From Mesorhizobium loti (GTDB taxonomy: Bacteria; Pseudomonadota; Alphaproteobacteria; Rhizobiales; Rhizobiaceae): DNA of 64,000 nt. Shown piece by piece: positions 2,596-24,968 of the stretch (positions within the stretch are counted from its first letter, which is position 1; every line of letters begins with the position of its first letter). Both the position numbers and the translations under genes were made by a program. The stretch lies in NCBI GenBank assembly GCA_002356515.1, contig AP017605.1:5689020-5753019 (forward strand), given 5' to 3'. The notes under the pieces were generated by a model that saw only the letters and a program-made list of their open reading frames with translations, did not search any database and was not told the origin of the DNA.

Positions 2596-3408
2596 GGCAC
2601 TGTAAAGTTATCAGCGGATTGATGCAGCGATAGCTGGCCGGGACGGCTGTCACGCTGCGGCGAGACACGCGATTTTGTTCCAGATTTGCATGGCGGCGTT
2701 ACGCAGGTCTCGATGTTGAGCCGATGACAGCGTATTGCGGGGAAAGTGGAACAGGTTGGCAATCGGATCATGGATGGAAACGAACCGCTGAAGCTGGCGT
2801 GCCGACTTGAAGCGTTTCATGGTCCTTTCGCGTCGTCGGGTCGGCTGGTGCGAATTTTCCGCTCGATTATTGAGGCCTTTGTGCGACCGGTGTTCGACAC
2901 CGGGCATGAGGTCGCGCCTGGCGGCATCATAGGACCGGAGCTTGTCGGTGATCATGACTCGTGGTGTCCGCCCTTGAGCCTTCAGCAACTTGCGCATCAG
3001 ACGCTTTGCCGCCTTGGCATTTCGGCGGCTTTGCACCAGCACTTCGAGGACGAAGCCGTCCTGATCGACGGCACGCCAGAGCCACTGCTTCTTGCCATTG
3101 ATGGCCACCACACATTCGTCGAGATGCCATTTGTCGCCCAGGCAGCCGGCTGACCGTCGCTTGATCTCCCGGGCGAAATGCCGCCCGAATTTCTCCGCCC
3201 AGCTTCGAATGGTCTGATGCGTGACGATGATGCCGCGGGCCGCCAACATGTCCATGCGCAGGCTGAGCGGAAAGCGAAAGTAGAGCCATACCGCGTGCGC
3301 AATGATCTCGGCGGGAAAGCGGTGGCAACGATAAAGCGGATCACGAGCAACTTCTGACATGGCCCATGTTCGCACATCTTCATCAGCCGTGGTTAACTTT
3401 ACGGTGCC
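2596..3408 (-). mobile_element. IS6-family insertion sequence, copy 1
   Basis: An 813-bp element with terminal inverted repeats: GGCACTGTAAAGTTA at the left and the complement of GGCACCGTAAAGTTA at the right. It differs from the copy at 12888-13701 at only three places that I can find: two substitutions in the transposase and one missing base near the right end. The 8-bp flanks (GTTGCTTC left, ATACTACG right) are not direct repeats, so no simple target duplication remains. Confidence 0.9.
2650..3360 (-). CDS. IS6-family DDE transposase (copy 1)
   Basis: About 236 residues, usual for IS6 transposases. The DDE residues are visible in the family's contexts: D in WHLDECVV, D in ITDKLRSYD and E in NNRAENSHQP. 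The start was taken at MSEVARDPLY; an upstream in-frame ATG at 3375 is also possible. It appears intact. IS6 elements move by replicative transposition or by joining next to an existing copy, which suits the second copy 10 kb away. Confidence 0.9.
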   Translation of the reverse strand: MSEVARDPLYRCHRFPAEIIAHAVWLYFRFPLSLRMDMLAARGIIVTHQTIRSWAEKFGRHFAREIKRRSAGCLGDKWHLDECVVAINGKKQWLWRAVDQDGFVLEVLVQSRRNAKAAKRLMRKLLKAQGRTPRVMITDKLRSYDAARRDLMPGVEHRSHKGLNNRAENSHQPTRRRERTMKRFKSARQLQRFVSIHDPIANLFHFPRNTLSSAQHRDLRNAAMQIWNKIACLAAA

Positions 3409-3743
3409 ATACTACGCCATGCTGCAAGAACCAGCCATAGCCGCGTGACTCAAACCAAATGGCCTTCGCCAAACCCGGGACGGTTCTGAAACTCTCCGTC
3501 AGCTAATCGTCAGCCAAGCGATCTATCTAGACCTGCCGTGCCTAACCGGCCCGACGCTAACGGAAAGATAGTAGTGCAAATCCTAGTATAGCGAATTGGT
3601 GGCCCGTCCGATGCACACTACACGCGCATTGGCGAAGCTGACGAGGCGTGATTTCACTCATCAAAGCCTTCATACGCTAGGGCTCAGCGACATCAGCCCC
3701 AACAGCATAGGCAACACATCCTCGCCTATATCGGAGACGGAAT
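3409..3743 (+). promoter_or_regulatory. Promoter region of the giant effector with candidate tts box
   Basis: No gene is seen here. At 3498-3514 the sequence GTCAGCTAATCGTCAG follows the rhizobial tts-box core (GTCAG, then TCG, then AG), the site bound by the type III regulator TtsI. It lies about 245 bp before the ATG at 3744. The copy-1 insertion sequence ends upstream of it, so the promoter is not interrupted. The second half of the consensus is weaker, so the site is a candidate. Confidence 0.5.
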
Positions 3744-6700: not shown

Positions 6701-9700
6701 TAAGGCCACGGTAGTAGTTGCCGCCGAGATTCGCCGCCGCCCTGCCGGGCTCTCTGATTTTGATCCGCAGAACCTGGGTAACGTTGTGAACGGGTTGAGC
6801 AAGTGGCCGCTAGAGGAGGAGTGTTGCGGCGTTATCGATGCAATCGCCGGGAAGGTCTGTGGCCGCGCCGGTGAAAAAGCCGGCCTGTCTGGGTTTAATT
6901 CGCAGGCATTCGCAAACCTGGTGAACGGGTTCAGCAAGGCGCGGGAACCGGGGAACTCACATCAGGCGACCATTGTCATAGCCGATGCGGTCTGTCGCCT
7001 CGCCGATGAAATTGTCATAGCCGATTCGATCGGTCGCCTCGCCGATGAAAAAGCCGGCCGGACTGGGTGGTATCCGCAGGCGTTGGCGAATTTGGTGAAC
7101 GGCTTCAGCAAGTGGCCTTTGGACTGCCGCGGCGCTATAGTTGCGATCGCGCGTCAGGTCGCTGGCGGGGCCGGCAAGCTGCCTGTGTTTGATGCGCAGG
7201 CATTGGCGAACCTGGTGAACGGGTTCAGCAAGTGGCCAGAGGACTGCCGCGGCGCTACAATTGCAATCGCCGCTGAAGTCTGTCGCCTCGCGGACCTCCC
7301 AAAGGCCGGGCTTTCTGGTTTCGATCCGCAGCACCTGGCGAACCTGGTGAACGGCTTCAGCAAATTGCAAGCGGCGGAGTGCTCACGCGCCACCGTTGCA
7401 ATCGCCGGTGAAGTCTGTCACCGCGCCGGCCGCCGCAAGGGGCTTTCTGATTTTGATGTGCAGCACCTGGCGAACCTGGTGAAGGGCTTCAGCAAGTGGC
7501 CGCAAGAGGTGAATTTGGGTTACGCCACCAATGTGGTCGCCGGCGAGGTGCTTCGCTGCGCCGAGCCACTCTCTGAATTTCTTCCGCTGCACCTGGCGAG
7601 CCTAGTGAACGGCTTCAGCAAGTGGCCGCGATGGGAAAACTCACATCAAGCCACAGTTGCGATCGCCGGTGAGGTCCGTCACCGCGCCGACCAGCTGTCT
7701 GGGTTCGAACCGCAGGAGCTGGCAAACCTGGTGAACGGTTTCAGCAAATGGCCCGAGGACTGCCGTGGCGCCATCGTTGCGATCGCCCGGGCGGTGCCTC
7801 GCCGCGCCGGCCGGCTGTCGGGATTTAATGGGCAGGATCTGGCGAACCTGGTGAACGGTTTCAGCAAGTGGCCTTTGGACTGCCGCGAGGCCATGGTTGC
7901 GATCGCCCGGGCGGTGCCTCGCCGCGCCGGCCGGCTGTCGGGATTCAATGGGCAGGATCTGGCGAACCTGGTAAACGGCTTCAGTAAATGGCCGCAAGAG
8001 GAGAACTCACGTCAGGCCACCGTTGCGATCGCTGGTGAGGTGCTTCGCAGCACAAACCCGCCCCCTGACTTTAGCTCGCAGTACCTCGCGAACCTGGTGA
8101 ACGGCTTCAGCAAATGGCCGGAAGAGGAGGCCTTACGTCAAGCCGCCGCGGCGATTGCTGGTGAGGTGATTCGCAGCGCTAACCGGCTCCCTGATTTTAC
8201 CTCGCAGCACCTGGCGAACCTGGTGAACGGCTTTAGCAAGTGGCCGCAGGAGGAGAAATCACGTCAGGCCACCGCGGCGATCGCCGGTGAGGTGCTTCGC
8301 GGTGCCGAGCGACTCTCCGGGGTTAATCCGCAGCAACTGGCAAATCTGCTCAACGGCTTCGACAGGTTTGCGGAAGAAGAGGCGTGCAGCCAGGCGATTT
8401 TGGAGATCGCGCGCAGACTCGGCCAGGCGGGTCAACCATTCCGTCATTTTGCCGCGCCCGGGCTCTCCAGTATCGCCAACAGTTTGGCGCGGGGGATCCT
8501 CAGGAGCGAGGACGCCGGAGAGATTGCAGAGGCCGCTCTGCTGAAAGATCGGCTGCACAAACTGGCTCATTATCTTCATTATGCCAGTGATCGTCTGGAG
8601 GAGGCCGACGCGGTGGGCGTCACGAGCATCTTGAAGGCGTTGGCCAAGGCTCAATTGTATGATGATCTCGGTTCGCTCGCAGGAGCAGGTTTAAATCGGC
8701 TCGCGGAATTGCATCGTGCCCCTGGCTTTGCCCATGAGAATAACCTCGAAACCATGGGCAATCTGTGCGCCGCTCTGCTGCCGCTGGCTCGCAGTCCGCG
8801 CAAGCAGCTGCTTTGGCACCGGCGGCCGGCTCTGAACTTGCTGAACGATATTCAACCGATCGTGGAGCACAAGATCGAAGCCCATCTCAGGGCAAGCGAT
8901 GCCGAGCGGGCCCGCGGGCCGTACTCGACCCGTTGTCTGGCCCTGTCGATTTATCAAGTGCTCAAGGCCCGTGCGAGCCTGGCAGGGTTGCTGCGGCGGC
9001 CCTATGTCGAGGGCAACAAGCCCGATTTGCGTGCGAGGCGCGACGAGCTGCAGTCCAAGACCAAGGAAATCCTGGACAGCACGCGCGAGCTCGTCGAACG
9101 CGACCTTTCCAACATGAGCTGGAACCTGATCGCGCAGATCGAAGCGGAGGGTCCGACCGATGCGCTGGACACGTTCATGGCGCAGAACGCCGCGACGGTG
9201 CAGGCCCAAAATCGAGCGTCCGTCTTCGACGTCCATCAGACTTTGCGAGCCATGGACCACGAGCCCAGACCGCCCCAGGGCGAGGCGGGGCTGATGCGAT
9301 TGCCGGTGGTCGACATGCAGGGCCGGCAACTGGCCACGGAGGCCGAGACACGCTATTCGATCTTTCATCGCCTGACCTCGGGGGCGGTGAAGATGGTCGC
9401 GGTGCAACTGCCCGGAAAGCCGAGCCCGTTCATGCTGGCGCGCACGTTGACCGTCGAGGGCGTGCCATACCGCATGGACCTGTTCGGCGGCAGCAAGTTA
9501 AAGCCGCCGCCGAAGACGCTTTCGCAGGTCGCCGCCCGCATTCCAGGTCGGGTGGAGGCAGCATCTTCCGGCGGAAAGCTGCTGGCCATTCCCTATGCCG
9601 AAACCGCACCGGGCACTGCGTTCGAGCAGCTATCGCGCTCTTGGGCGCCTTTCAAAGAGGCATATTACTACACTCAGCGCAGGGGGTTTGCAGCGCCACC

Positions 9701-12700
9701 GAATTTACAAGGTCTGGGGCCTCGCGACTACGCGTTGGAAGGCGCCTTCAAATTGTCGCTGCTGCCGGACCGCCCTGCCAACCAGGAACGTCCCTTCAAG
9801 CTGATTGGGCCGGAAGGCCCGATCGCCTTGCGACCGTATGACGGCTGCGGTTTCATCAAGGCCTCGCTGGCCACGCGTATGCCAGCTGTTCGCCGGACCG
9901 GTCGGCAGGAAGGACCTGATCGGGTTCCTGCTTTTGGTGAGGGAAGGAGATCGTCCTTGCCTGCCTCGGCGCTGCAACATTATCCGCGCAGCGAGCAAGT
10001 GGCCGATGAGGCGCACGAGAAGGCCAAGACCTGGCTCGAGAGCAGAGAGGGGAAAGAGCTGACGGCCGAGGAGCTGTTTCGAACGGTGACTGTCGGACAT
10101 ATCGACGGTCCTGGCGCAGTCGCGGTACCGTCCGCTGATAAGTGTCTCCATGTGCCGACGCTCAAGAGCGAGACGTTGACGGGCAAAAGCGGTGTGCTGA
10201 TCGGGCGGTCGCCTTACGACAAGCCCAACCTGCGCCCATTTTCCGCCGACCTGGTCAAGTCAGCAGTTGATGGGGACCCGACGGCAGCGTTCCTCGACAC
10301 CTGCGTTGCTATCCAATACAGCTTTAATGTCGCCCAGAAGTCGGGGGAGGAACTCGCGGCCGACGATCCGACTTTCTTTGCCAAAGGCATCCTGATCGTC
10401 GTGCCGGACGAGATGTGGCCGGCCGCCCACGCCGACCGAGGGCTGGTTTTGTCTGCCGAGGACGTCAAGTCCCATTCGCACTGGACGACAGGCAAGGACC
10501 GCGTCAAGGAGGACACGCCGCTCGACTGCCTCGGCATCCTGCAGGCCACCGAGGTGTTCGCTCCGGGCTCCTTGGTTGCCGTCCCGACCGGTGAACAGAA
10601 AAAGCTTGACGGCGACTTCGATGGCGACACCGTCATCATCATCGGCGACCGGCCGCAGCTTTATGAGCATGTGCGCGAGTTCGATGAAAAGGAGCAAGCT
10701 CTCGGACTTCCATCGCTGAAGCCGCCAAAGTCGCATACTCCGGCGCTTGACGGCGACAAGTACCAGTTTGGTCGCGCCAGCCAGATTCTCGCCGCCACCC
10801 AGGATGTCCTGGAAACCTATAGCGGTCTGCAGCGAAACTTCCTGGCTCAATCCCATGAAGCGCGAGGCTGGTTTGCCGAGCGTGCCATCTTTGGCACCTA
10901 CGAAGGCGTTCACCACGAGCTTCGGCGAGACATCGGTCAGTTGTTGGGCCGCGAAGAGGAGGTGAGTGGCCAGGATATCGAGACCGTGTTTGCGAGAGCG
11001 CGGCGCGAGATCGAGGTCGCCCGGCATCCGGTTGCTCGCGAAATGGCCGCGCTGCTGGTCGCCGACCTTGAGGCGTGGGCACAGAAGCCGGAACGCCTGC
11101 CCGAAACAGTCGGGCCCGTGAACGATGCAAAAAGCACGACGCTGAGCGCAGCAGTCTCAGAGTTGTTGCCGGATCTGGCGGATGCCTATCCGGTAACAAA
11201 TCAGCCACGAGACCGCATCCGGGCTTTGATCGACAACTATCCTGCGCGGATCGATCCTCGCCCGGACGGTTACAACCCGGATGACCTCGTGCAAAGCGCA
11301 AACAATCTCCTGAGCCTCGGCATCAAGGTCGGCACCGATGCCTACAAATCCAACACTGGCGCTCGGCTTTTTTCCAGGAAAAGCCAAGATCTTCAGCGGC
11401 TGCTGCATACGACGCCTGGCTTGAGGTCCGTGCCCTACGTCAAGGGCCTGGCAGCGTCTCTCAACCATGGAAGGTTTGATGTCGATGCAGCCTTGAAGGA
11501 CCTGGAGGACAACCCCACGCTGACGGCTTCAGTCATGGAAACATCGATCAATCTCGCTGCGGAGCACGGCATTTTGCGCAGACCCTCCGGCCTTCGGCCC
11601 ACCGCCGAAGCTGCCGAGATGATCCCGCTGACCCCCGAGGAGGCCTCAGAGCGCGCCCGAATTGAGGTTGCGCGCGCTACAAAAGAGGAGGGGAAAATCA
11701 CCGCAGCGGCACTCAGCGTCGCCGCAAGCCTCAGGAAAATGGAGATCCAGGTGAAAATGCCTCATCTGGAGCGCCGGTTGAGATCGGAACGCTCCATAAG
11801 AGAGCAGCTCACCGGCACGAGCATCTCGTCCGGCAGCACTCCACAGCTGATCAGCAGCGCCGTACGCCACGTCTTCGAAATTCCTGACAACGATTTTACA
11901 CGTGCCTTCAAGGCAGCCATTCTGGCCTTCGAGGAGCAGCACTACACCGAAATCGAGGTGACCAACTGGTTCAAATTCGAGCGTCCGAGTTATCTCGGCA
12001 TACACACTGTGCTCGCCACCACAGAAGGCTACCGTTTCCAGGTGGAATTCCATACGCCAGCCAGCTACAGCGCCAAAGTTGACAATCACGACGCCTATAA
12101 AGAGATGCAGGAGCTGAAGCGCCGTGATGCTTTGCAGAAGGCAGAGAAACTCGAGCAGAAGGTAAGAGAAGGCAATAAGGCAGTTGACAGACCCGATAAC
12201 GTGCTCAGCATAGCACACTGGAGGGATGGTAAGGATAGTGCTGCTGCAGCACCTGGATTGCGAGCTGTCGGACGATCAACAGAGTCGGAGATCGCCAAGT
12301 CACCGGAGGCAAAGGAGACTGTCGCTGCCCTCGGCCATCGGCCGGTCGTGCTTGTCGGTATGCCGAGCGCCGGGAAAACCACGATTGGCGCGCCACTCGC
12401 CAAGCGACTGGGGCTGCGCTTCATCGATACCGACCAAGAAATTCAGAAGCAGACCGGGAAATCGATAACGCAGATATTCAATACAAATGGCGAGGGCTAT
12501 TTTAGGAAGCTTGAGGCGGAGGCAATCGCGCGTGTGCTCGAGCAAGGGCCCGCGGTCATCGCGACCGGTGGCGGCTCGTTGAACGATGAGCAGACCCGGC
12601 GACTCATCGCCGACAAAGCGGTCTCGATCTGGATAAATACCGACCCGCGGGTGCTACGACGCCGCCTCAGGAACGATACCACCCGCCCGCTGCTGCGGGG

Positions 12701-12914
12701 CTCCGACCGGGATCAGACGGTTCCCCAACTCATGGACGAGCGCAAGCCGTTCTATGAACAAGCTAACGTCAGGTTTGTCCCACCCCGCAAAAACGATAAA
12801 CAGAACGCGGGCCCATGTCTGAAGGCCCTGCACGCATACCTGTGCCCCACGGGGGCCGACGCTCAGTCGCTTTCTAATATATCCCACGGCACTGTAAAGT
12901 TATCAGCGGATTGA
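3744..12914 (+). CDS. Giant SKWP-repeat type III effector with shikimate-kinase C-terminus
   Basis: 3056 residues; the start ATG has GGAGA six bases upstream. Order of parts: (1) N-terminal helical region paralogous to the preceding gene, with three 34-35-residue linker repeats (5031-5340). (2) About 15 repeats of roughly 40 residues with the core LANLVNGFSKWP (6530-8400), the HEAT/ARM-like repeat of Ralstonia RipS and Xanthomonas XopAD effectors. (3) A region with DGCGFI (2033), KGILIVVP (2214) and DGDFDGD (2289-2295), resembling RNA-polymerase-type double-psi barrels. (4) A RelA/SpoT-like segment, about 2700-2795 (YLGIHT, VEFHTP). (5) A full shikimate-kinase domain: Walker A G2872-T2880, DTD 2895, GGG 2942, R2981, R3000. 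The last eight residues come from the IS inverted repeat. A role inside the plant cell is inferred from the SKWP family and the tts box. Confidence 0.9.
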   Translation: MTGVNRSGRSRTEKRVGRTGEASSSRSQSSLAPGAGSQSFDTVVEQMRSVEINRRTPAVPMERGADDALHDRPSGPSVGIHGTLDAARHAAAAPRAAGPRRRSVPSMLEGETLAPVASQPPTSGVAAPICLSGDEIKEKRRMDSLLTLVGMRFNAARQDPGDEKLLDQVINAGSAALHHYKSLSQALARTIVDDNQLITCRYLVWDAVQEYSRLAEPTIHKLQKKKAEEEAIGLTQSTATPESVVEAHAACVKWWEKKVGHCERGRAAWRATASLPSATAKMRQEEEATLRLATGSVMHSKLVYLQSRIDLARAKIEPQASTFDAPVREILMVENGRVRLLEAFSGDVLPAFLSTQNAVLSSGGHPLDADHCAVLEGVIERLSEFASELQVIRTNLNDHQTSADLPLELLSQIVEGAWIVGHEVMHLLELQPKPPAVALPPDAGAAIPAETAGKSRVAKGTLALQPKAPALIASPADAGATIQIDTVGKSPVAKGTLALQPNWPANIAPPADMGAGIPADTAGKAAVAGAAARRKRKGKGKPAVGAGSSAPGRASQVAAVDSDTAPADKVLVLSDMGTKLVSAEEARASASAGAQSAKQAPPSMEALTQERQVKPEDARYVAETVVERLQTQPAEMRACPAALDEPRRPGLLAPAQVPEVQDKTVRLKGMLNQAQELAKALNSQSSHAPGQSSQSSDAGVERTHSGPQDRMSYARVVRGADEALGDKSADYSIAPRGALAGSRGATSGPRHGSPQGRHGEAMGRQESSLRLERSWLGDQEPSRSQPDTLARHDQSQSRPVAGPERRRFDHVAAQSFDDALLNDALHKIFFAHDINEFSYAVVENDKRLQSQAHRATFLRKAASEFTRHFVPRWEDDVRAGNTWGFATSCNATSREPGGQAGMEACRAMAAQVSRLGRALNDVESKTLSLFVLSFSRHPRLAECRNGMITIAKLFHEQPGALSELNGQSLALLVNGFSKWPEQENARKATVVVAAEIRRRPAGLSDFDPQNLGNVVNGLSKWPLEEECCGVIDAIAGKVCGRAGEKAGLSGFNSQAFANLVNGFSKAREPGNSHQATIVIADAVCRLADEIVIADSIGRLADEKAGRTGWYPQALANLVNGFSKWPLDCRGAIVAIARQVAGGAGKLPVFDAQALANLVNGFSKWPEDCRGATIAIAAEVCRLADLPKAGLSGFDPQHLANLVNGFSKLQAAECSRATVAIAGEVCHRAGRRKGLSDFDVQHLANLVKGFSKWPQEVNLGYATNVVAGEVLRCAEPLSEFLPLHLASLVNGFSKWPRWENSHQATVAIAGEVRHRADQLSGFEPQELANLVNGFSKWPEDCRGAIVAIARAVPRRAGRLSGFNGQDLANLVNGFSKWPLDCREAMVAIARAVPRRAGRLSGFNGQDLANLVNGFSKWPQEENSRQATVAIAGEVLRSTNPPPDFSSQYLANLVNGFSKWPEEEALRQAAAAIAGEVIRSANRLPDFTSQHLANLVNGFSKWPQEEKSRQATAAIAGEVLRGAERLSGVNPQQLANLLNGFDRFAEEEACSQAILEIARRLGQAGQPFRHFAAPGLSSIANSLARGILRSEDAGEIAEAALLKDRLHKLAHYLHYASDRLEEADAVGVTSILKALAKAQLYDDLGSLAGAGLNRLAELHRAPGFAHENNLETMGNLCAALLPLARSPRKQLLWHRRPALNLLNDIQPIVEHKIEAHLRASDAERARGPYSTRCLALSIYQVLKARASLAGLLRRPYVEGNKPDLRARRDELQSKTKEILDSTRELVERDLSNMSWNLIAQIEAEGPTDALDTFMAQNAATVQAQNRASVFDVHQTLRAMDHEPRPPQGEAGLMRLPVVDMQGRQLATEAETRYSIFHRLTSGAVKMVAVQLPGKPSPFMLARTLTVEGVPYRMDLFGGSKLKPPPKTLSQVAARIPGRVEAASSGGKLLAIPYAETAPGTAFEQLSRSWAPFKEAYYYTQRRGFAAPPNLQGLGPRDYALEGAFKLSLLPDRPANQERPFKLIGPEGPIALRPYDGCGFIKASLATRMPAVRRTGRQEGPDRVPAFGEGRRSSLPASALQHYPRSEQVADEAHEKAKTWLESREGKELTAEELFRTVTVGHIDGPGAVAVPSADKCLHVPTLKSETLTGKSGVLIGRSPYDKPNLRPFSADLVKSAVDGDPTAAFLDTCVAIQYSFNVAQKSGEELAADDPTFFAKGILIVVPDEMWPAAHADRGLVLSAEDVKSHSHWTTGKDRVKEDTPLDCLGILQATEVFAPGSLVAVPTGEQKKLDGDFDGDTVIIIGDRPQLYEHVREFDEKEQALGLPSLKPPKSHTPALDGDKYQFGRASQILAATQDVLETYSGLQRNFLAQSHEARGWFAERAIFGTYEGVHHELRRDIGQLLGREEEVSGQDIETVFARARREIEVARHPVAREMAALLVADLEAWAQKPERLPETVGPVNDAKSTTLSAAVSELLPDLADAYPVTNQPRDRIRALIDNYPARIDPRPDGYNPDDLVQSANNLLSLGIKVGTDAYKSNTGARLFSRKSQDLQRLLHTTPGLRSVPYVKGLAASLNHGRFDVDAALKDLEDNPTLTASVMETSINLAAEHGILRRPSGLRPTAEAAEMIPLTPEEASERARIEVARATKEEGKITAAALSVAASLRKMEIQVKMPHLERRLRSERSIREQLTGTSISSGSTPQLISSAVRHVFEIPDNDFTRAFKAAILAFEEQHYTEIEVTNWFKFERPSYLGIHTVLATTEGYRFQVEFHTPASYSAKVDNHDAYKEMQELKRRDALQKAEKLEQKVREGNKAVDRPDNVLSIAHWRDGKDSAAAAPGLRAVGRSTESEIAKSPEAKETVAALGHRPVVLVGMPSAGKTTIGAPLAKRLGLRFIDTDQEIQKQTGKSITQIFNTNGEGYFRKLEAEAIARVLEQGPAVIATGGGSLNDEQTRRLIADKAVSIWINTDPRVLRRRLRNDTTRPLLRGSDRDQTVPQLMDERKPFYEQANVRFVPPRKNDKQNAGPCLKALHAYLCPTGADAQSLSNISHGTVKLSAD
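6530..8400 (+). repeat. SKWP repeat array inside the giant effector
   Basis: Around 15 in-frame repeats of about 120 bp encode LANLVNGFSKWP followed by a helix (AIVAIA-EV-RA) and a variable part. The core varies: SKAR, SKLQ and a degenerate NGFDRFA at the end. Units starting near 7781 and 7901 are almost identical over 120 bp, a recent duplication. At 6972-7010 and 7011-7049 a 39-bp piece is duplicated inside one unit. The spacing and coding pattern exclude a CRISPR array. Confidence 0.9.
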
Positions 12915-13701
12915 TGCAGCGATAGCTGGCCGGGACGGCTGTCACGCTGCGGCGAGACACGCGATTTTGTTCCAGATTTGCATGGCGGCGTTACGCAGGT
13001 CTCGATGTTGAGCCGATGACAGCGTATTGCGGGGAAAGTGGAACAGGTTGGCAATCGGATCATGGATGGAAACGAACCGCTGAAGCTGGCGTGCCGACTT
13101 GAAGCGTTTCATGGTCCTTTCGCGTCGTCGGGTCGGCTGGTGCGAATTTTCCGCTCGATTATTGAGGCCTTTGTGCGACCGGTGTTCGACACCGGGCATG
13201 AGGTCGCGCCTGGCGGCATCATAGGACCGGAGCTTGTCGGTGATCATGACTCGTGGTGTCCGCCCTTGAGCCTTCAGCAACTTGCGCATCAGACGCTTTG
13301 CCGCCTTGGCATTTCGGCGGCTTTGCACCAGCACTTCGAGGACGAAGCCGTCCTGATCGACGGCACGCCAGAGCCACTGCTTCTTGCCATTGATGGCCAC
13401 CACACATTCGTCGAGATGCCATTTGTCGCCCAGGCAGCCGGCTGACCGTCGCTTGATCTCCCGGGCGAAATGCCGCCCGAATTTCTCCGCCCAGCTTCGA
13501 ATGGTCTGATGCGTGACCATGATGCCGCGGGCCGCCAACATGTCCATGCGCAGGCTGAGCGGAAAGCGAAAGTAGAGCCATACCGCGTGCGCAATGATCT
13601 CGGCGGGAAAGCGGTGGCGACGATAAAGCGGATCACGAGCAACTTCTGACATGGCCCATGTTCGCACATCTTCATCAGCCGTCGGTTAACTTTACGGTGC
13701 C
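12888..13701 (-). mobile_element. IS6-family insertion sequence, copy 2
   Basis: An 814-bp element with the same terminal repeats and orientation as copy 1. Its left end is joined in frame to the giant effector, whose final codons and TGA (12912-12914) lie in the IS. Flanking octamers (TATCCCAC left, GGCCGGAC right) do not match each other or those of copy 1. With copy 1 it brackets the effector in a composite-transposon-like arrangement, 2596-13701. Confidence 0.9.
12942..13652 (-). CDS. IS6-family DDE transposase (copy 2)
   Basis: Same length and DDE residues as copy 1. It differs at two visible positions: YRRHRF here against YRCHRF, and RGIMVT against RGIIVT. Start chosen at MSEVARDPLY as for copy 1. 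It appears intact. Confidence 0.9.
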   Translation of the reverse strand: MSEVARDPLYRRHRFPAEIIAHAVWLYFRFPLSLRMDMLAARGIMVTHQTIRSWAEKFGRHFAREIKRRSAGCLGDKWHLDECVVAINGKKQWLWRAVDQDGFVLEVLVQSRRNAKAAKRLMRKLLKAQGRTPRVMITDKLRSYDAARRDLMPGVEHRSHKGLNNRAENSHQPTRRRERTMKRFKSARQLQRFVSIHDPIANLFHFPRNTLSSAQHRDLRNAAMQIWNKIACLAAA

Positions 13702-13719: not shown

Positions 13720-14260
13720 TCGTTCTGGCCGGCCCAGATTGACTGTGGCCATACTGCTGCTCGACCTCCTCCCAAGTGAGGACCTTGGAAAGAATGGGAA
13801 GCATTTGGCAATTCAGCGCGCAGGCCTGGCAGCGCCAGCTTCTGCCAGGCGATCGCCCTCAGGCGTGGCGGCAGGTTGAACCCGAGCAGGCGGCAAAAGG
13901 GACGCCGAGGGCGCTCTGGCCATGGCTGCCGACATATAAGCGCTGGATCTCCACGTTGGTGTAATGTCGCAGCAAGACCTTGGTCATCGCCGCGACCTCC
14001 GAAGACGAACAGCGCTTGAGCTGCGAGAAAATGCAGGTCGAGCCCTTTTCGACATGCCAGTAGATCATCACGCGCGACCGCCATAGCGGACATGCCATTC
14101 CGTCATCAGGTTGCCGTCCCAAGCGCCGAACTTCTTGGGCCGTGCCGGCTTCGCCCTAGATGGCGGTGTTGCGGATCGCCTGTGTTGCATTGGCAACGAG
14201 CCCGCAAGCCGCCTCGAGCGCGCCCGGAGCAAGCACGTGACCCCTGAGCCAACCAGGAGC
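13720..14260 (-). pseudogene. Tn3-family transposase remnant
   Basis: Reading the minus strand across frames gives successive pieces of a Tn3-type TnpA C-terminal half: [70 protein letters not shown] and LSKVLTWEEVEQQY. They lie in different frames, and a TAG sits where the family has a Trp codon (RNTAIW). The order is right but the gene is clearly dead, and the rest of the transposon is absent. Confidence 0.75.
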
Positions 14261-14383
14261 CCTCCTATGGCTCAATACGGTCAGGTCGCCTGCCATCATT
14301 CCACGACAGGACAACTAATAAAGAAGGTGTCGCCGGTCTGGCGTCTGACCACCGTATACTATCCGACACTGTTTTGTCGCCTT

Positions 14384-14399
14384 TGTTGGGTCCGCGACA
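14384..14399 (+). promoter_or_regulatory. NifA upstream activator sequence
   Basis: TGT-N10-ACA (TGTTGGGTCCGCGACA), the exact NifA-binding consensus. It sits about 90 bp upstream of a -24/-12 promoter, the usual distance for nif promoters. With the downstream nifH relic it appears to be a former nifH control region, now in front of the gibberellin operon. Confidence 0.7.
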
Positions 14400-14487
14400 C
14401 CGGGCTATTTCATCGAGCTCTTGTCTGCCTCAGGCTAATCCCCTGAAAAGCAATCACAATGTTTTTCTTCTGCTGGGTCGGCCAAAT

Positions 14488-14503
14488 TGGCACGAGTTTT
14501 GAG
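14488..14503 (+). promoter_or_regulatory. Sigma-54 (-24/-12) promoter of nifH type
   Basis: TGGCACGAGTTTTGAG matches the RpoN consensus TGGCACG-N4-TTGC except that the -12 GC reads GA. Rhizobial nifH promoters have nearly the same sequence. Predicted transcription starts near 14514, giving an untranslated stretch of about 410 bases before cyp112. Whether the -12 change still allows activity cannot be judged from sequence. Confidence 0.65.
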
Positions 14504-14590
14504 ACTCCTTCGTTGGGAGCCGGGAGCCGACGACCGATCTTCATTTCGTGGATGACACCGCGATCGATGGAACGAAGAAAGAAAAGCATA

Positions 14591-14800
14591 ATGTCAAATC
14601 CGCATCAGATAGCATCCTATGGCAAGGGGGCCTTGGCGAAACCGCCCGTACCCAAACAGGCTGCCAACCTTGTCGACGCTTGCGCAGGAAATCTTGATGG
14701 CCGGCTGCGACTCAAGGGCCCACCACACTCGCCTTAATCCTGAACTCGAAGGCGCAGGATAAAGTTCTGCATCTCGCCGCGCGGTATGCCTAGACAGTTA
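14591..14800 (+). pseudogene. nifH: Decayed 5' fragment of nifH
   Basis: From the ATG at 14591 the reading gives MSNPHQIASYGKG, against the NifH start M-x-x-x-RQIAFYGKGG. Continuing across frame shifts, the DNA keeps LVD, then ILMAGCD (NifH ILIVGCD), then TRLILNSKAQDKVLHLAA (NifH TRLILNAKAQDTVLHLAA). The P-loop residues are mutated, and no intact frame remains. The fragment lies directly downstream of the NifA/sigma-54 promoter, as in a real nifH gene. It ends about 120 bp before cyp112. Confidence 0.8.
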
Positions 14801-14922
14801 CACGTTGGCCGATCTTGACATCGAGTCGGGCTACTCCCCGGACGACGTCTACGTGCCGTCGTAATCATTCGCTGCCCGCAGCGCCTTCCGCCCTTCCATC
14901 GCTTAGAGAGTGAAGTGCCACC

Positions 14923-16125
14923 ATGTCCGAACAACCCTTGCCGACGCTGCCGATGTGGCGCGTCGATCACATCGAGCCCTCGCCTGAGATGTTGGCGCTA
15001 CGCGCCAACGGTCCGATCCACCACGTACGCTTCCCGTCCGGGCACGAAGGCTGGTGGGTGACAGGCTACGACGAGGCCAAGGCGGCGCTGTCCGACGCGG
15101 CGTTCCGGCCCGCGGGAATGCCGCCGGCGGCATTCACCCCGGATTCGGTGATTCTCGGTTCGCCGGGGTGGCTTGTCTCGCACGAGGGGGGCGAGCATGC
15201 CCGGTTACGCACGATCGTGGCGCCGGCCTTCAGCAACCGCAGGGTGAAGGTGCTCGCGCAGCAGGTCGAGGCGATCGCCGCGCAGTTGTTCGAGACGCTG
15301 GCGGCCCAGCCCCAGCCCGCCGACCTGAGGCGCCACCTCTCCTTTCCGCTGCCGGCCATGGTCATCAGCGCGCTGATGGGCGTGCTCTACGAGGATCACG
15401 CCTTTTTCGCCGGGCTGTCCGACGAAGTGATGACGCACCAGCATGAAAGCGGCCCGCGCAGCGCGTCGCGCCTGGCCTGGGAAGAACTGCGCGCCTACAT
15501 TCGCGGCAAGATGTGGGACAAGCGCCAGGATCCGGGCGACAACCTGCTGACGGATCTGCTCGCGGCGGTCGAGCAGGGCAATGCGACCGAGGAAGAGGCG
15601 ATCGGCCTGGCGGCGGGCATGCTGGTGGCGGGGCACGAGAGCACCGTCGCGCAGATCGAATTCGGCCTGCTGGCCATGTTCCGCCATCCGCAACAGCGCG
15701 AACGCCTAGTCGGCGATCCATCCCTGGTGGACAAGGCGGTGGAGGAAATCCTGCGCATGTACCCGCCGGGCGCGGGCTGGGACGGCATCATGCGCTATCC
15801 GAGGACCGACGTGACTATCGCGGGCGTGCATATTCCCGCGGAGAGCAAGGTGCTGGTCGGCCTGCCGGCGACGTCGTTCGATCCGCGCCATTTCGACGAC
15901 CCGGAAATCTTCGACATCGGACGCGACGAAAATCCGCACCTGACGTTTTCGCACGGGCCGCACTACTGCATCGGCATGGCGCTGGCCAGGCTGGAACTCA
16001 AGGTGGTGGTCGGCTCGATCTTCCAGCGCTTTCCCGCGCTGCGCCTGGCCGTGGCGCCCGAAGAACTGAAGTTGCGCAAGGAGATCATCACTGGCGGGTT
16101 CGAGGAGTTCCCGGTGCTCTGGTGA
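14923..16125 (+). CDS. cyp112: Cytochrome P450 CYP112 (gibberellin operon)
   Basis: 400-residue soluble bacterial P450. I-helix AGHEST, ExxR motif EEILR, and haem-binding loop [10 protein letters not shown] with the thiolate Cys at residue 349. First gene of the gibberellin operon. In rhizobia CYP112 acts late, converting GA12 through GA15 and GA24 towards GA9. That role is taken from work on other rhizobial operons; the sequence itself shows only the P450 family and the position. The ATG at 14923 is preceded by a weak GAGAG. The gene is visibly more GC-rich than the flanking DNA. Confidence 0.93.
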
Positions 16126-16219: not shown

Positions 16220-17509
16220 ATGGACGTGCAAGAAACCACGGCAGCATGCCGGGACGCCTTCGCCGAACTTGCGTCGCCAGCGTGTATCCAAGACCCGTAT
16301 ACGTTCATGCGGTGGTTGCGCGAGCACGATCCGGTGCATCGTGCGGCGTCGGGCCTCTTTCTGTTGAGCCGCCACGCCGACATCTACTGGGCGCTCAAGG
16401 CCACGGGCGATGTGTTTCGGGGACCGGCGCCGGGCGAGCTGGCGCGCTATTTCCCGCGTGCGGAGACCAGCCTGTCACTCAATCTCCTCGCGTCCACGCT
16501 AGCGATGAAGGAACCACCGACGCATACGCGTCTGCGCCGGCTGATCTCGCGCGATTTCACCATACGCCAGATCGACAACCTGCGGCCGAGCATCGCACGC
16601 ATCGTCGCAGCGCGCCTGGACGGCATGGCGCCCGCGCTGGAGCGCGGGGAGGCGGTGGACCTGCATTGGGAATTCGCGCTGGCTGTGCCCATTCTGGTCT
16701 TCGCCGAACTGTTCGGCATGCCCCAGGATGACATGTTCGGGCTCGCCGCCGGCATCGGCGCCATTCTGGAAGGCCTGAGCCCACACGCCAGCGATCCCCA
16801 GCTCGCCGAGGCGGACGCGGCCAGCGCCAGGGTGCAGGCCTACTTCGGCGACCTCATACAGCGCAAGCGCACCGATCCCCGTAACGACATCGTGTCGATG
16901 GTGGTCGGCGCACACGACGACGATGCCGACACGCTGTCGGATGCGGAGTTGATCAGCATGCTGTGGGGCATGCTGCTGGGCGGCTTCGCCACCACTGCTG
17001 CGACCATCGACCATGCGGTCCTAGCGATGCTGGCGTATCCCGAACAGCGGCACTGGCTGCAGGGAGACGCCGTGGGGGTGAAGGCATTCGTCGAAGAAGT
17101 CCTGCGCTGCGACGCGCCTGCCATGTTCAGCTCCATCCCGCGTATCGCCCAGCGCGACATCGAACTGGGCGGCGTGGTGATCCCGAAGAACGCGGACGTG
17201 CGCGTGCTGATCGCGGCCGGCAATCGCGACCCGGACGCCTTCTCCGATCCCGACCGCTTCGATCCCGCGCGGTTCTACGGCACCACTCCTGGCATGTCGA
17301 CCGACGGGAAGATCATGCTGAGCTTTGGCCACGGCATCCACTTCTGCCTCGGTGCGCAACTGGCCCGGGTGCAGTTGGCCGAGAGCCTGCCGCGGATCGA
17401 GGCGCGCTTCCCCACGCTGGCATTGGCCGAGCAGCCGACCCGGGAGCCATCCGCGTTCCTCAGGACGTTCCGCGCGCTGCCGGTGCGACTGCATGCTCAG
17501 GGGGGCTGA
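16220..17509 (+). CDS. cyp114: Cytochrome P450 CYP114 (gibberellin operon)
   Basis: 429 residues. ExxR motif EEVLR; haem loop [10 protein letters not shown] with Cys at 376. In characterised operons CYP114, with the neighbouring ferredoxin, oxidises ent-kaurenoic acid and contracts ring B to give GA12-aldehyde. The I-helix reads GGFATT, where most P450s have an acid before the Thr (AGHDTT or AGHEST), so the usual proton-relay acid is missing. The next start codon follows one base after the stop, indicating translational coupling. Confidence 0.93.
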
Positions 17510-17510
17510 G

Positions 17511-18635
17511 ATGCGCGTCGTGATCGATCAGGATCTATGCGGAACCACCGGGCAGTGTGTGCTGACGCTGCCGGGCACCTTTCGCCAGCGCGAACCGGAC
17601 GGCGTGGCGGAAGTGTGCGTGGCGACGGTCCCGCAGGCGCTGCACGCCGCCGCGCGGCTCGCGGCCAGCCAGTGTCCGGTCGCCGCCATTCGGGTCATCG
17701 AAAGCGACGCTGGCGAGCGCGCCAGCGCCGACCCTGCGCCTTCTCCGGCGCAGGCTGAGCGGCATGCCGCGAAAGACCAACGCAACCCAGGAGGACGGTT
17801 TGAAGGCAAGGTGGCCGTGGTGACCGGCGCCGGCGCCGGCATCGGCAAGGCATGCGCCCTCGCCATCGCGCGCGAGGGCGGCAGAGTGGTGGTGGCCGAC
17901 ATTGATGGCTCGGCGGCCGTCGCCTGCACCGCGCAGATCGCGGCCGAAGCGGGCCACGCGCTGGCCCTGGCCATGGACATCGCCGATGCGCAGGCGGTGG
18001 CAGCGCTGTTCGAGACGGCGGAGCGGCACTTCGGTGGGGTCGACCTGCTGGTGAACAACGCGAGCGCCATGCATCTGACACCGCGCGACCGCACGATCCT
18101 CGACCTGGACCTGGCGGTCTGGGATCAGACCATGGCGACCAATCTGCGCGGCACGCTGCTCTGCTGCCGGCAGGCCATCCCACGAATGATCGCCCGCGGC
18201 GGTGGCGCGATCGTCAACATGTCGTCGTGCCAGGGGCTCAGCGGTGACACCGCGCAGACGTCCTACGCCGCGTCGAAGGCGGCGATGAACATGCTGTCGG
18301 CCTCGCTCGCCACCCAGTACGGTCATGCGCAGATCCGCTGCAACGCGGTTGCGCCGGGTCTCATCATGACCGAGCGTCTCCTCGCCAAGCTGGACGAGTG
18401 CATGCAACGGCATCTGAGCCGGCACCAACTCCTGCAGCGCGTCGGCCGCCCCGAGGACGTGGCCGCGCTGGTGGCGTTCCTGCTCTCCGACGATGCTGCG
18501 TTCATCACCGGCCAGGTCCTGTGCATCGACGGCGGCATGCTGGCGCATGTGCCGACGTACGCCGACGGTGGCAACAGCCGCGCCGCGCGGCCTGCCGGCG
18601 ACACCGCCAAAGCGGCCGCGGGGCCGCGCTGCTGA
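17511..18635 (+). CDS. Ferredoxin-SDR fusion protein (gibberellin operon)
   Basis: 374 residues joining two enzymes that are separate genes in Bradyrhizobium-type operons. Residues 1-65 form a 3Fe-4S ferredoxin (C10, C16, C55; LCGTTGQC and QCPVAAI), expected to feed electrons to the P450s. After an Ala/Pro-rich linker (about 66-95) comes a classical short-chain dehydrogenase: TGAGAGIG for NAD(P), NNAS, and the S...Y-x-x-x-K set in MSSCQG and SYAASKAA. The SDR is reported to oxidise GA12-aldehyde to GA12. No stop lies between the domains, so the fusion is real here. The stop overlaps the cyp117 ATG by one base. Confidence 0.92.
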   Translation: MRVVIDQDLCGTTGQCVLTLPGTFRQREPDGVAEVCVATVPQALHAAARLAASQCPVAAIRVIESDAGERASADPAPSPAQAERHAAKDQRNPGGRFEGKVAVVTGAGAGIGKACALAIAREGGRVVVADIDGSAAVACTAQIAAEAGHALALAMDIADAQAVAALFETAERHFGGVDLLVNNASAMHLTPRDRTILDLDLAVWDQTMATNLRGTLLCCRQAIPRMIARGGGAIVNMSSCQGLSGDTAQTSYAASKAAMNMLSASLATQYGHAQIRCNAVAPGLIMTERLLAKLDECMQRHLSRHQLLQRVGRPEDVAALVAFLLSDDAAFITGQVLCIDGGMLAHVPTYADGGNSRAARPAGDTAKAAAGPRC

Positions 18636-19978
18636 TGGACATGCTGCTCAACCCGCTGGACCGTCGGCACCGGCTGCGGGACGACATCCCGGTCGTGCCC
18701 GGCGCTTTCCCCCTGGTCGGACATCTTCCCGCCATCGTATGCGACCTGCCGCGCCTGCTGCGGCGCGCGGAACGGACGTTGGGCAGCCACTTCTGGCTGG
18801 ATTTCGGCCCTGCCGGACACCTGATGACCTGCGTGGATCCGGATGCGTTTGCACTGCTCCGGCACAAGGACGTGTCCTCGGCGCTGATCGAAGAGATCGC
18901 GCCCGAATTGCTTGGCGGAACGTTGGTCGCCCAGGACGGCGGCGCGCACCGGCAGGCGCGCGACGCGATCAAGGCGGCGTTCCTGCCCAAGGGGCTGACC
19001 CAAGCCGGCATCGGCAACCTGTTCGCGCCCGTCATCCAGGCGCGGGTGCAGGCGTGGCGCGACCGCGGCGACGTAACCATCCTGCGCGAAACCGGCGACC
19101 TGATGCTCAAGCTCATCTTCAGCCTCATGGGAATCCCAGCGCAGGACCTGCCGGGATGGCATCGCAAATACCGGCAACTGCTGCAGTTGATCGTCGCGCC
19201 CCCGGTCGACCTGCCTGGACTGCCCTTGCGGCGCGGCCGCGCCGCCCGCGACTGGATCGACGCGCAGTTGCGCCAGTTCGTCCGCGACGCGCGCGCACAT
19301 GCCGCGCGCACTGGGTTGATCAATGACATGGTGAGCTCCTTCGATCGCGGCGACGATGCGCTCTCCGACGACGTCCTGGTCGCCAATATCCGCCTGCTGC
19401 TGCTTGCCGGTCACGACACCACCGCCTCGACGATGGCCTGGATGGTGATCGAGCTGGCGCGGCAGCCTGGGCTATGGGACGCCCTGGTCGAGGAGGCGCA
19501 ACGCGTGGGCGCGGTGCCGACCCGGCACGCGGACCTGACGCAGTGTCCGGTCGCCGAGGCGCTGTTCCGCGAGACGCTGCGCGTGCATCCGGCGACCACG
19601 CTCCTGCCGCGTCGCGCGCTGCAGGAATTGCAACTCGGCCAACGGCGCATTCCTGCGGGCACCCCTCTGTGCATCCCGCTGCTGCATTTCTCGACCTCTG
19701 CGCTGCTGCACGAGGCGCCTGATCAGTTCCGCCTGGCACGGTGGCTGCAACGCACGGAGCCGATCCGGCCGGTGGACATGCTGCAGTTCGGTACCGGCCC
19801 ACACGTCTGCATCGGTTACCACCTGGTATGGCTGGAAATGGTGCAGTTCTGCATCGCCTTGGCACTGACCATGCACAAGGCCGGGGTGCGGCCGCGGTTG
19901 CTGAGCGCCGTCGAAAAAGGTCGGCGCTATTTCCCGACCGCACATCCGTCCATGAAAATCCGCATCGGATTCTCATGA
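18635..19978 (+). CDS. cyp117: Cytochrome P450 CYP117 (gibberellin operon)
   Basis: 447 residues from the ATG overlapping the previous stop. A proline-rich start (IPVVPGAFPLVGHLP), I-helix AGHDTT, ExxR in RETLR and haem loop FGTGPHVCIG with Cys 392. In the characterised pathway CYP117 oxidises ent-kaurene to ent-kaurenoic acid, so it acts first among the P450s. The longer frame that opens upstream inside the SDR gene is a shadow. Confidence 0.92.
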   Translation: MDMLLNPLDRRHRLRDDIPVVPGAFPLVGHLPAIVCDLPRLLRRAERTLGSHFWLDFGPAGHLMTCVDPDAFALLRHKDVSSALIEEIAPELLGGTLVAQDGGAHRQARDAIKAAFLPKGLTQAGIGNLFAPVIQARVQAWRDRGDVTILRETGDLMLKLIFSLMGIPAQDLPGWHRKYRQLLQLIVAPPVDLPGLPLRRGRAARDWIDAQLRQFVRDARAHAARTGLINDMVSSFDRGDDALSDDVLVANIRLLLLAGHDTTASTMAWMVIELARQPGLWDALVEEAQRVGAVPTRHADLTQCPVAEALFRETLRVHPATTLLPRRALQELQLGQRRIPAGTPLCIPLLHFSTSALLHEAPDQFRLARWLQRTEPIRPVDMLQFGTGPHVCIGYHLVWLEMVQFCIALALTMHKAGVRPRLLSAVEKGRRYFPTAHPSMKIRIGFS

Positions 19979-20102
19979 GCTGGCATCGCATGCCCCGTGT
20001 GGCGAGGCAGCTACTCGGCGCGCGCGCTCGGTGCGACCCCGCCAACACCGCGGCGGCTCGGACGCTCGCCGTGGCCGTGCCAGATACAAGGACATGAACG
20101 AC

Positions 20103-21068
20103 ATGCAGACCGATTCCACGCTACACGACGACGCGCAGGCGCGCGGCGCATCCGGCAGGCTGCCGTCGGAGATCTGGATGCAGGACGGCGTAAGGCGGGT
20201 CGAACAGGCGCTGGCGCGTCTTCTCTGCGCCGAAGACGACGGTGAGACCGAGCTGATGGCGGCGATGCGCTACGCCACCTTGCATGGCGGAAAGCGCACC
20301 CGCGCCTTGCTCTGTCTGGCTACCGGCGCACTGGCCGACACGCCGGCGCCCATGCTCGACGATGTCGGCGCCGCCATCGAGATGATGCACGCCTGTACCC
20401 TGGTCCACGACGACCTGCCCGCAATGGACGATGACGTGCTTCGCCGCGGCCTTCCGACCGTGCACGTCAAGTTCGGCGAAGCCACTGCGATCCTGGTCGG
20501 CGATGCGCTGCAGGCGCACGCCTTCCTGACCCTGGCGAGCCTGGATGCGCCGAGCGACAACCGTATCGCGCTCGTGCGCGAACTGGCGCAGGCGGTGTCC
20601 GCCGAGGGTGCCGCAGGCGGGCAGGCCATGGATCTGTCGCTGGTAGGAAAGCACGTCGAGCTGGACAGGATCGTGGCGATGCACCGGATGAAGAGCGGAG
20701 CACTAGTGCGCGCGTCCGTTCGCATGGGCGCGCTATGCGCCATCGCGGAGGATGCCGCCCACGCTGCGCTGTACTGTGCGCTCGATCGCTACTCCGCCTG
20801 TTTCGGCCTGGCGTTGCAGGTGGTCGACGACATTCTCGACGCGACAGCGGATACCGCGACGTTGGGCAAGACCCCCGGCAAGGACGCGGCGGCGCAGAAG
20901 CCGACCTGTGCGTCGATCATGGGGCTGCAGGCAGCGCGCCAGTTGGCGCTGGATCTGTTGCGCGACGCCGGGGAGGCCATCCCCCCGCTGGGAACGCGTG
21001 CGGAACGGTTGGCGCACATGCTGCAACGGGCCAACGCGTATCTGTTCAAGCACGCGCCATGCGCATGA
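20103..21068 (+). CDS. ggps: Geranylgeranyl diphosphate synthase
   Basis: Isoprenyl diphosphate synthase of about 321 residues. First Asp-rich motif HDDLPAMDDD, second VVDDILD, and GGKRTR for pyrophosphate binding. It supplies GGPP to the next two cyclases. The start is placed at 20103 because AAGGA (20088-20092) is ten bases away; an in-frame ATG at 20094 would be only one base from it. A further upstream frame (from 20031) lacks family resemblance. Confidence 0.9.
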   Translation: MQTDSTLHDDAQARGASGRLPSEIWMQDGVRRVEQALARLLCAEDDGETELMAAMRYATLHGGKRTRALLCLATGALADTPAPMLDDVGAAIEMMHACTLVHDDLPAMDDDVLRRGLPTVHVKFGEATAILVGDALQAHAFLTLASLDAPSDNRIALVRELAQAVSAEGAAGGQAMDLSLVGKHVELDRIVAMHRMKSGALVRASVRMGALCAIAEDAAHAALYCALDRYSACFGLALQVVDDILDATADTATLGKTPGKDAAAQKPTCASIMGLQAARQLALDLLRDAGEAIPPLGTRAERLAHMLQRANAYLFKHAPCA

Positions 21069-21378
21069 GCGCGCCCGTCCGCATGGAGTCGCCCCTGTGC
21101 CGCTGCGATCGATCGGCCGGCGTGAGCGGTGCATGCTGCACTGTGTCCAAGTCGGCGGCGGCGATCGCAGCGGTTGCCCAGCACAGCCGCGGCTCACGCG
21201 GCGCGCTGCGCGCAAGCCTATGCGGCGGACCGGCCCCAGCATGGGGCGCGTCGCCGCGCCGGAGCAGGGCGGCCGTCCGGCGCTGCCCGTGCGCCGGGCC
21301 GCGACGGGCCTGCGGCGACGTGCGCGGCGTCTGCCCGATCCAGGTTCCCGTCAACTGTCTGCAGAAGGAACATACCGC

Positions 21379-21382
<4 letters not shown>
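21065..21382 (+). other. Possible 105-codon coupled ORF between GGPP synthase and CPS
   Basis: The 310-base gap holds an open frame that starts in an ATGA overlap with the GGPP synthase stop and ends in a GTGA overlap with the CPS start. The predicted product is Cys- and Arg-rich and has no family I recognise. In DNA this GC-rich, open frames are common, so it may be chance. The two exact overlaps are why it is listed. Confidence 0.2.
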
Positions 21383-23828
<2,446 letters not shown>

Positions 23829-23912: not shown

Positions 23913-24968
23913 ATGAGCGATAGCGACAACATCCCGAGCCGGCGCAAGGACGACCATCTGGACATCGTGCTGGATCGGCGAACGGCGCCGGCCACGGTCG
24001 CCGCCGGCTGGGAGTACATCCGTTTCGAACACTGCGCATTGCCCGAGTTGGACCTGACGCAGATCGACCTGCGCGCCTCGCTGCTGGGCAAGACCATGCG
24101 CGCGCCGCTGCTGATCAGCTCCATGACCGGCGGCGTGCTACGCGCCGAGGCCATCAACCGGCATCTGAGCGAGGCAGCACAAGCCTTGGGGATCGCCATG
24201 TGCGTCGGTTCGCAGCGCGTGAGCCTGCAATCCCGCAACTCCCAGGGGCTGACGCGCGCGCTGCGCCGCATGGCCCCAGACATTCCCTTGCTGGCTAATA
24301 TCGGCGCCGCGCAACTGCGCGAGGCCGACGGCCTGGACCTGGCGTGCCGGGCGGTGGATGCGCTGGAGGCCGATGGACTCATCGTCCATCTCAATGCGCT
24401 GCAGGAAGCGGTACAGCCGGAGGGCGACCGCGACTGGCGCGGCGTCCTGGCGCAGATCGCTCGCGCCGCGCGCAGCGTGGACGTGCCGATTGTGGCCAAG
24501 GAAGTGGGGTCGGGCCTGTCCGCCTCGGTGGCCTGCGCGCTCGTCAAGGCGGGCGTGGCGGTCATCGATGTCGCCGGCGCCGGCGGCACCAGTTGGGCCG
24601 CGGTGGAGGGCGAGCGCGCCCGCGATGCCGCCGACCGTGCAGTGGCGATGGCGTTCGCCGACTGGGGGATTCCGACCCCGGCCAGCGTGCAGGCGGTACG
24701 TCGGGCGCTGCCAACTGTGAAGCTGATCGCGTCGGGCGGGATCCGCGACGGCGTCGACGTGGCCAAGGCCATCCGCCTGGGCGCGGACATCGCCGGGCAG
24801 GCGGCCGGCGTGCTGCGCGCGGCGACGGTGTCCACCGAGGCGGTTGTCGCGCATTTCGAGATCGTCATCCGCCAGTTGGCCGTTGCCTGCTTCTGCACCG
24901 GCTCGGCTGATCTGGCGGCGTTGCGTCAGGCGCGGTTGTTGCCCTCGGCGCATCTGCCCGCCGGTTGA
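23913..24968 (+). CDS. fni: Isopentenyl-diphosphate delta-isomerase, type 2
   Basis: 351 residues, FMN-dependent type 2 IDI. Features include an N-terminal [13 protein letters not shown], and a Gly-rich flavin-binding region ([15 protein letters not shown]). It balances IPP and DMAPP for GGPP formation. The start at 23913 has GGAG nearby; the longer frame from 23847 has no family match before this point. It is the last gene of the operon and is absent from some rhizobial versions. Confidence 0.9.

Follow-up and report, generated by a model that had tools for sequence, protein, structure and literature searches.

The gibberellin operon in the window analyzed here (a 64,000-nucleotide stretch of the Mesorhizobium loti genome) would, with high probability in our assessment, have its transcription in nitrogen-fixing bacteroids started by a sigma-54 promoter that was taken over from nifH; on this reading the captured element had a single origin and then moved horizontally, together with the operon, between rhizobial genera. 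Judged from the alignments, the 5' end of nifH is joined to a decapitated cyp115 immediately before cyp112, and under the proposed mechanism NifA would bind at 14384-14399 and activate RpoN polymerase at 14487-14503, so that the transcript would first cover ~190 bases of dead nifH and ~70 bases of dead cyp115 before reaching cyp112 and the genes behind it. This region has the following features.

14384..14399, forward strand: NifA upstream activator site (UAS), TGT-N10-ACA, with spacing to the ATG equal to that of the genome's own nifH
14487..14503, forward strand: -24/-12 sigma-54 promoter of nifH type, TTGGCACGAGTTTTGAG, from its match to the genome's own nifH and its conservation
14504..14590, forward strand: nifH leader remnant, from alignment to nifH loci
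14591..14780, forward strand: decayed nifH coding start, codons 1 to ~63, frame broken, from alignment and frame check
14781..14839, forward strand: join region, where the class consensus aligns weakly to nifH up to codon ~77
14840..14906, forward strand: 3' stub of cyp115, last ~26 codons with 12 bases missing, ending in the stop codon TAG, from comparison with the genome's own distal cyp115
14923..16125, forward strand: cyp112, cytochrome P450, first intact gene of the gibberellin operon
16220..17509, forward strand: cyp114, cytochrome P450
17325..18635, forward strand: fused ferredoxin-SDR (Fer4 and adh_short in one frame), longest open frame, true start further in
18398..19978, forward strand: cyp117, cytochrome P450, longest open frame
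20031..21068, forward strand: ggps, polyprenyl synthetase
20752..22929, forward strand: cps, diterpene cyclase, longest open frame, true start further in
22926..23828, forward strand: ks, terpene synthase
23916..24968, forward strand: idi, fni-type isomerase by position, with an FMN_dh Pfam match

Pfam matches placed cyp112, cyp114, fd, sdr, cyp117, ggps, cps, and ks in the order that we took to define the operon, and the window's cyp112 matches the gene of an annotated neighbour at 99%. This is the same operon, with the same remnant 5' of cyp112, as the rhizobial gibberellin operon with a cyp115 pseudogene fragment described before, and its fused ferredoxin-SDR is as described for a Mesorhizobium clade; as far as considered here, those papers hold nothing on a nifH relic or promoter (PMC7273348, PMC6278637). 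Elsewhere in the window, two insertion-sequence transposase genes of equal length and the same direction (2650-3375 and 12942-13667, minus strand), both matching Pfam DDE_Tnp_IS240 with nearly equal scores, lie on either side of a 3056-codon open frame (3744-12914) whose sole strong Pfam match is a C-terminal shikimate kinase domain.

The evidence for the capture begins with homology. Positions 14372-14780 comprise a nifH promoter and the decayed start of the gene behind it, and they score 229 bits against a nifH reference set, compared with 31.9 bits for the best of 200 dinucleotide shuffles. Nucleotides 1-191 of the genome's own nifH align with 14591-14780 at 75% identity (E 6e-26), and with the promoter included the nifH similarity spans 14357-14780 at 74% (E 1e-63, 45-locus nifH reference set); nifH genes in a plasmid collection of 7.3 Gb also match the region, with E values down to 5e-54. 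Homology in the coding part reaches codon ~63, and the piece is a relic and not a gene, with a reading frame that stops after 48 amino acids and no nitrogenase iron protein open reading frame found. Within the join region (14781-14839), the window's own sequence was not clearly assignable in the alignment.

The promoter elements retain the geometry of nifH. The UAS, TGTTGGGTCCGCGACA, is an exact TGT-N10-ACA located 103 bases 5' of the -24 element, a distance of about 100 bases having been required, and 207 bases from the relic ATG at 14591, which is likewise the spacing in the genome's own nifH. The -24/-12 element was scored against TGGCACG-N4-TTGC, and its departure at -12 is that of the genome's own functional nifH promoter, TTGGCACGAGTTTTGAA, with which 16 of 17 bases are identical and only the last base differs. 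Because of this agreement, the absence of the -12 C is native to the genome's own nifH, and the idea that the promoter is too weak without this C was dropped, as the nifH promoter departs alike; an A at -12 is also reported for nifH of M. loti and R. etli (PMC3538637). The last position of the window's promoter is G, with A mostly present in 15 of the 16 other or same-type rows. A chance motif was also considered and set aside: exact TGT-N10-ACA sites number 10 in the 64 kb against 6.2 expected by shuffles, and the last 16 bases of the promoter carry 2 mismatches to the textbook -24/-12 consensus, a degree of match found 13 times across the window against 13.8 expected. With neither the UAS alone nor the consensus -24/-12 alone commoner than chance, the case therefore rests on homology and conservation. 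The sequence-only reading had claimed for this region an exact NifA site (present, though weak evidence alone at such counts), a promoter almost identical to rhizobial nifH promoters, and a decayed nifH start alignable to about codon 60, all of which held, and the alignment with functional nifH genes that it proposed proved significant. Capture of the nifH promoter together with a nifH relic is solid on these comparisons.

To place the window among related loci, we took the best 80 of 107 confirmed cyp112 loci (species representatives) and 4 plasmid records, one of them in both, which with the window added gave 84 distinct loci. Classed by shared upstream DNA, these formed groups of 23, 22, 19, 8, and 2 along with 10 single loci, the 23-member group being the nifH class, with members from six named genera (Mesorhizobium, Sinorhizobium, Rhizobium, Neorhizobium, Aminobacter, and Bradyrhizobium), and the 22-member group being one with an outer-membrane-protein promoter. 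Two Bradyrhizobium members of the nifH class have lost the nifH promoter, with the remnant starting only 32 bases before the nifH start, and have another sigma-54-like site ahead of it. The window's genus was searched separately: of 146 genomes, 34 have cyp112 (E 1e-120 or better), and 26 of these possessed the junction of nifH relic and cyp115 stub, defined as a match spanning both and no more than 20 bases from cyp112, with the two search lists compared by eye; the junction was absent before cyp112 from the remaining 8. The search for the same arrangement in other rhizobia, suggested by the earlier reading, was therefore fruitful in both samples. Separately, in Bradyrhizobium sp. 187 (plasmid p187_1, L175:5001-5404) the nifH-relic promoter is joined straight to cyp114 just after nifENX-fdxB, with cyp115 and cyp112 gone and the promoter retained, and orphan copies of the relic promoter (88-90% identity) occur on plasmids of Sinorhizobium chiapasense (L174:5001-5346) and M. 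loti 582 (L176:5001-5301), with no gibberellin operon annotated within the ~10 kb fetched.

The join itself lies in cyp115, whose product carries out the last step, from GA9 to GA4 (PMC7273348). The full cyp115 found at the operon 5' end in the phytopathogen form was not seen in the window, where just the 3' stub is in place, as recognized by comparison with this genome's intact distal copy and with the Xanthomonas bromi gene. The sequence-only reading had the relic followed by cyp112, which was right in its order, but it missed this stub. A nifH 5' fragment (promoter plus ~63-77 codons) would have been joined once to codon ~381 of cyp115, and we infer that the capture and the truncation were one event. 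A two-step history, in which cyp115 was truncated or lost early and the stub acquired a nif promoter only afterwards, is a serious competitor whose chances we put somewhat below even. Early truncation or loss has been proposed, with an ancestral reconstruction putting cyp115 loss soon after operon acquisition (PMC7273348), and blast mapping gave stub starts that differ by locus, from nt 1119 to 1166 in the nifH class; however, other promoter classes retain more of cyp115 (stub from ~nt 991) and in two Sinorhizobium/Ensifer loci the cyp115 frame is still open directly upstream. The common ancestor of the classes therefore possessed a larger part of the gene than the nifH-class stub. Apart from the stub, the genome holds a distal open cyp115 frame on the minus strand ~135 kb from the operon (L170:2488-3744; G000:C1 near 5568483), which encodes 418 amino acids with 84% identity to Xanthomonas bromi and is followed by a cyp112 fragment, and a pattern scan of that 7-kb stretch found no sigma-54-like site. 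This gene may let the strain finish GA4, under other control.

Conservation was evaluated on 16 of 24 rows of the nifH class, leaving out one duplicate record, two with another promoter, and five near-copies. Decay of the nifH and cyp115 remnants contrasts with conservation of the -24/-12 element: the mean pairwise difference is 0.049 for the element, compared with 0.179 for the nifH coding relic, 0.182 for the cyp115 stub, and 0.146 for the leader, alongside 0.165 for the UAS and 0.085 for the stretch just before cyp112. The motif TTGGCACG-N4-TTG is present in all 21 relics that retain the nifH promoter, whereas the UAS is exact in only 13 of these and, as a 16-base block, is not especially conserved (rank about 250 of 429 windows). 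Two of the 24 rows lack the start of the nifH frame, and in the others this frame runs for 32-77 amino acids before it stops. Sigma-54-like sites occur within 800 bases upstream of cyp112 on the coding strand in 59 of 85 rows and on the other strand in 1 of 85, against a background of 18 in 246,506 bases. These patterns bear on whether the nifH piece is simply neutral debris, with the operon driven by a nearby other promoter or by read-through. The clear decay of the nifH and cyp115 parts and the broken UAS spacing, N9 instead of N10, in 8 of the 21 relics fit such a reading, but we consider it unlikely: the -24/-12 block ranks near the bottom in variability (4th lowest of 429 as a 16-base window at 14487 and 12th of 429 as 17 bases), the bacteroid diterpenoid operon of M. 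loti R7A is described as driven by the same promoter sequence but for one base, and no sigma-70-like site was found in 14200-15000. The last point agrees with the claim of the sequence-only reading that no other clear promoter precedes cyp112, although with 0.2 sites expected by shuffles anyway the absence says little.

NifA control of the operon, which the sequence-only reading had proposed for bacteroids, is very likely given the comparative data and published lacZ fusions in M. loti R7A, and we infer that the promoter is active in the window's strain, in whose genome two nifA and two rpoN genes exceeded the cut-off. For Bradyrhizobium diazoefficiens, a NifA regulon study by Hauser in 2007 is reportedly the one cited for targets of NifA and RpoN1. 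Among these targets are cyp112 and cyp114, with bacteroid inductions of 107- and 55-fold, and sdr and cyp117 are induced without being marked as NifA targets (PMC6515984); operon expression is thereby linked to NifA as proposed here, whereas the captured promoter of Bradyrhizobium loci related to B. diazoefficiens is that of the outer-membrane-protein gene (class B) and not of nifH. In M. loti R7A, the operon msi071-msi064 ("Diterpenoid synthesis") is given the NifA promoter TTGGCACGAGTTTTGAA, like the window's but for one base, and msi071::lacZ in bacteroids is NifA2-dependent, falling from 618 to 6.3 Miller units in the nifA2 mutant (PMC3538637). As genes without NifA promoters, metE, aatA, and asnB among them, also lost bacteroid expression in this mutant (PMC3538637), that result alone is no proof of direct control. 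The R7A operon could be compared by description: Table 1 of PMC3538637 gives no nifH fragment for it, and cyp115 is not mentioned in the part of that paper at hand; M. loti DSM 2626 (L018) has the nifH relic. Expression of the operon in M. loti MAFF303099 is described as symbiosis-specific (PMC4910070).

Captured nif promoters are themselves a known kind in R7A, since "nifH frag, msi321-320" and "nifQ frag, msi332-331" are named there, each a nif fragment and promoter before an unrelated operon with NifA2-dependent expression; these differ from our case in their cargo, with no hormone operon and no pathway-gene truncation reported in the portion available (PMC3538637). The window's genome has further remnants of this sort. 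A second nifH leader and start remnant with a UAS and a -24/-12-like site (G000:C1:5337151-5340253, L006; L171:3177-3246, 3213-5150) precedes an ABC transporter gene (Pfam ABC_tran, ABC_membrane) whose longest frame begins inside the nifH-like leader, and a further nifH piece lies at L171:5411-5553. The third, nifH-promoter-like (G000:C1:5485752-5488858, L009; L172), stands before an open frame without a Pfam match, aligns with the gibberellin relic at 72% over ~107 bases (E 4e-8), and is possibly the counterpart of the M. loti msi321 "nifH frag" promoter.

To evaluate the origin of the relics, 23 of them were placed in a tree with 43 nifH genes, where they formed one clade (support 100/100) with nifH of Microvirga lotononidis as its sister (95/91); a first tree, in which 42 nifH genes were accompanied by two further pieces from the genome itself, supported the relic clade at 99/99. 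Given this grouping, the relics were not copied from the nifH of their respective hosts, and one capture followed by spread across genera would be the simplest reading of these trees; no nifH donor closer than Microvirga lotononidis was found in the sampled sequences. A quick tree of the operon body did not recover the nifH class as one clade and needed 8 changes, 3 of them forced by well-supported branches, which points either to recombination between promoter and body or to poor resolution of the tree; the idea of promoter classes following the operon tree was rejected as not clean on this count. That the operon was instead inserted into a resident second nifH copy is extremely improbable. 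The relic does start as an entire nifH gene would, promoter included, but no nifH 3' part exists anywhere in the 64-kb window, only one nifH in the genome exceeds the family cut-off, the gene that adjoins the nifH end is cyp115, which belongs to the original operon, and the relics do not group with each host's nifH. Insertion was therefore rejected, and from the earlier proposal that the operon was inserted into or joined to a broken nifH, the joining stands.

The other upstream classes indicate that nifH was not the only source, and one capture for all rhizobia is ruled out by the distribution of the 84 loci over several classes. In the second class, CGGCACGCGATTTGCT is found upstream in 22 of 22 loci, and in Bradyrhizobium huanghuaihaiense (L061) the class promoter and the next ~100 bases align in two segments, with E 1.5e-27 and 2e-18 at one place, to genes elsewhere in the genome. 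The product of these genes, which lie behind CGGCACGCGACTTGC, is an outer-membrane beta-barrel protein (Pfam OMP_b-brl, E 7e-15). The join in this class is at ~nt 991 of cyp115, leaving a stub longer than that of the nifH class, from which it therefore cannot descend. A "porin family" gene of B. diazoefficiens, bll1944, is a listed NifA target (PMC6515984), and our guess is that it is the same gene as the promoter source. Five Ensifer/Sinorhizobium loci (L032, L035, L046, L049, and L056) have a sigma-54-like site 76-80 bases before cyp112 and a UAS at about -180, a cassette 76-183 bases before cyp112 that lies between cyp115 and cyp112. In L032 and L035 an open cyp115 frame is still present upstream of it, so the promoter there entered without destroying cyp115 or cyp115 was regained. 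Promoter sources were not found for the 19-locus Bradyrhizobium class, where only 5 of 19 loci have a sigma-54-like site, nor for the class-D cassette beyond shared UAS DNA.

NifA dependence of this kind of operon is already in print (PMC3538637; PMC6515984, Table 2), and the regulatory prediction itself is therefore not new. Our literature search, which covered few subscription papers, found in print neither the nifH origin of this promoter and its join to cyp115 nor repeated promoter capture into cyp115. We tentatively suggest, as a possibility that may well prove wrong, that independent joins of NifA-type gene 5' ends into cyp115 (from nifH in one lineage and an outer-membrane beta-barrel gene in another) domesticated the rhizobial gibberellin operons, each giving bacteroid control and at once removing the last step to active gibberellin. 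If this is true, promoter capture would explain the patchy absence of cyp115, as a side effect, no less than selection against the active hormone does. One molecular event would then account for two features usually explained separately, namely late, symbiosis-specific expression and widespread cyp115 loss, with capture tying hormone making to nitrogen fixation, and the join may help explain why many nodule bacteria stop one step short. Because promoter and truncation are separable in a laboratory Mesorhizobium, the question of why rhizobia stop at GA9 becomes testable. More broadly, nif promoters would act as mobile switches, each bringing along a fossil of the gene it came from, and as such fossils accompany captured promoters, further captured operons should be findable through them.
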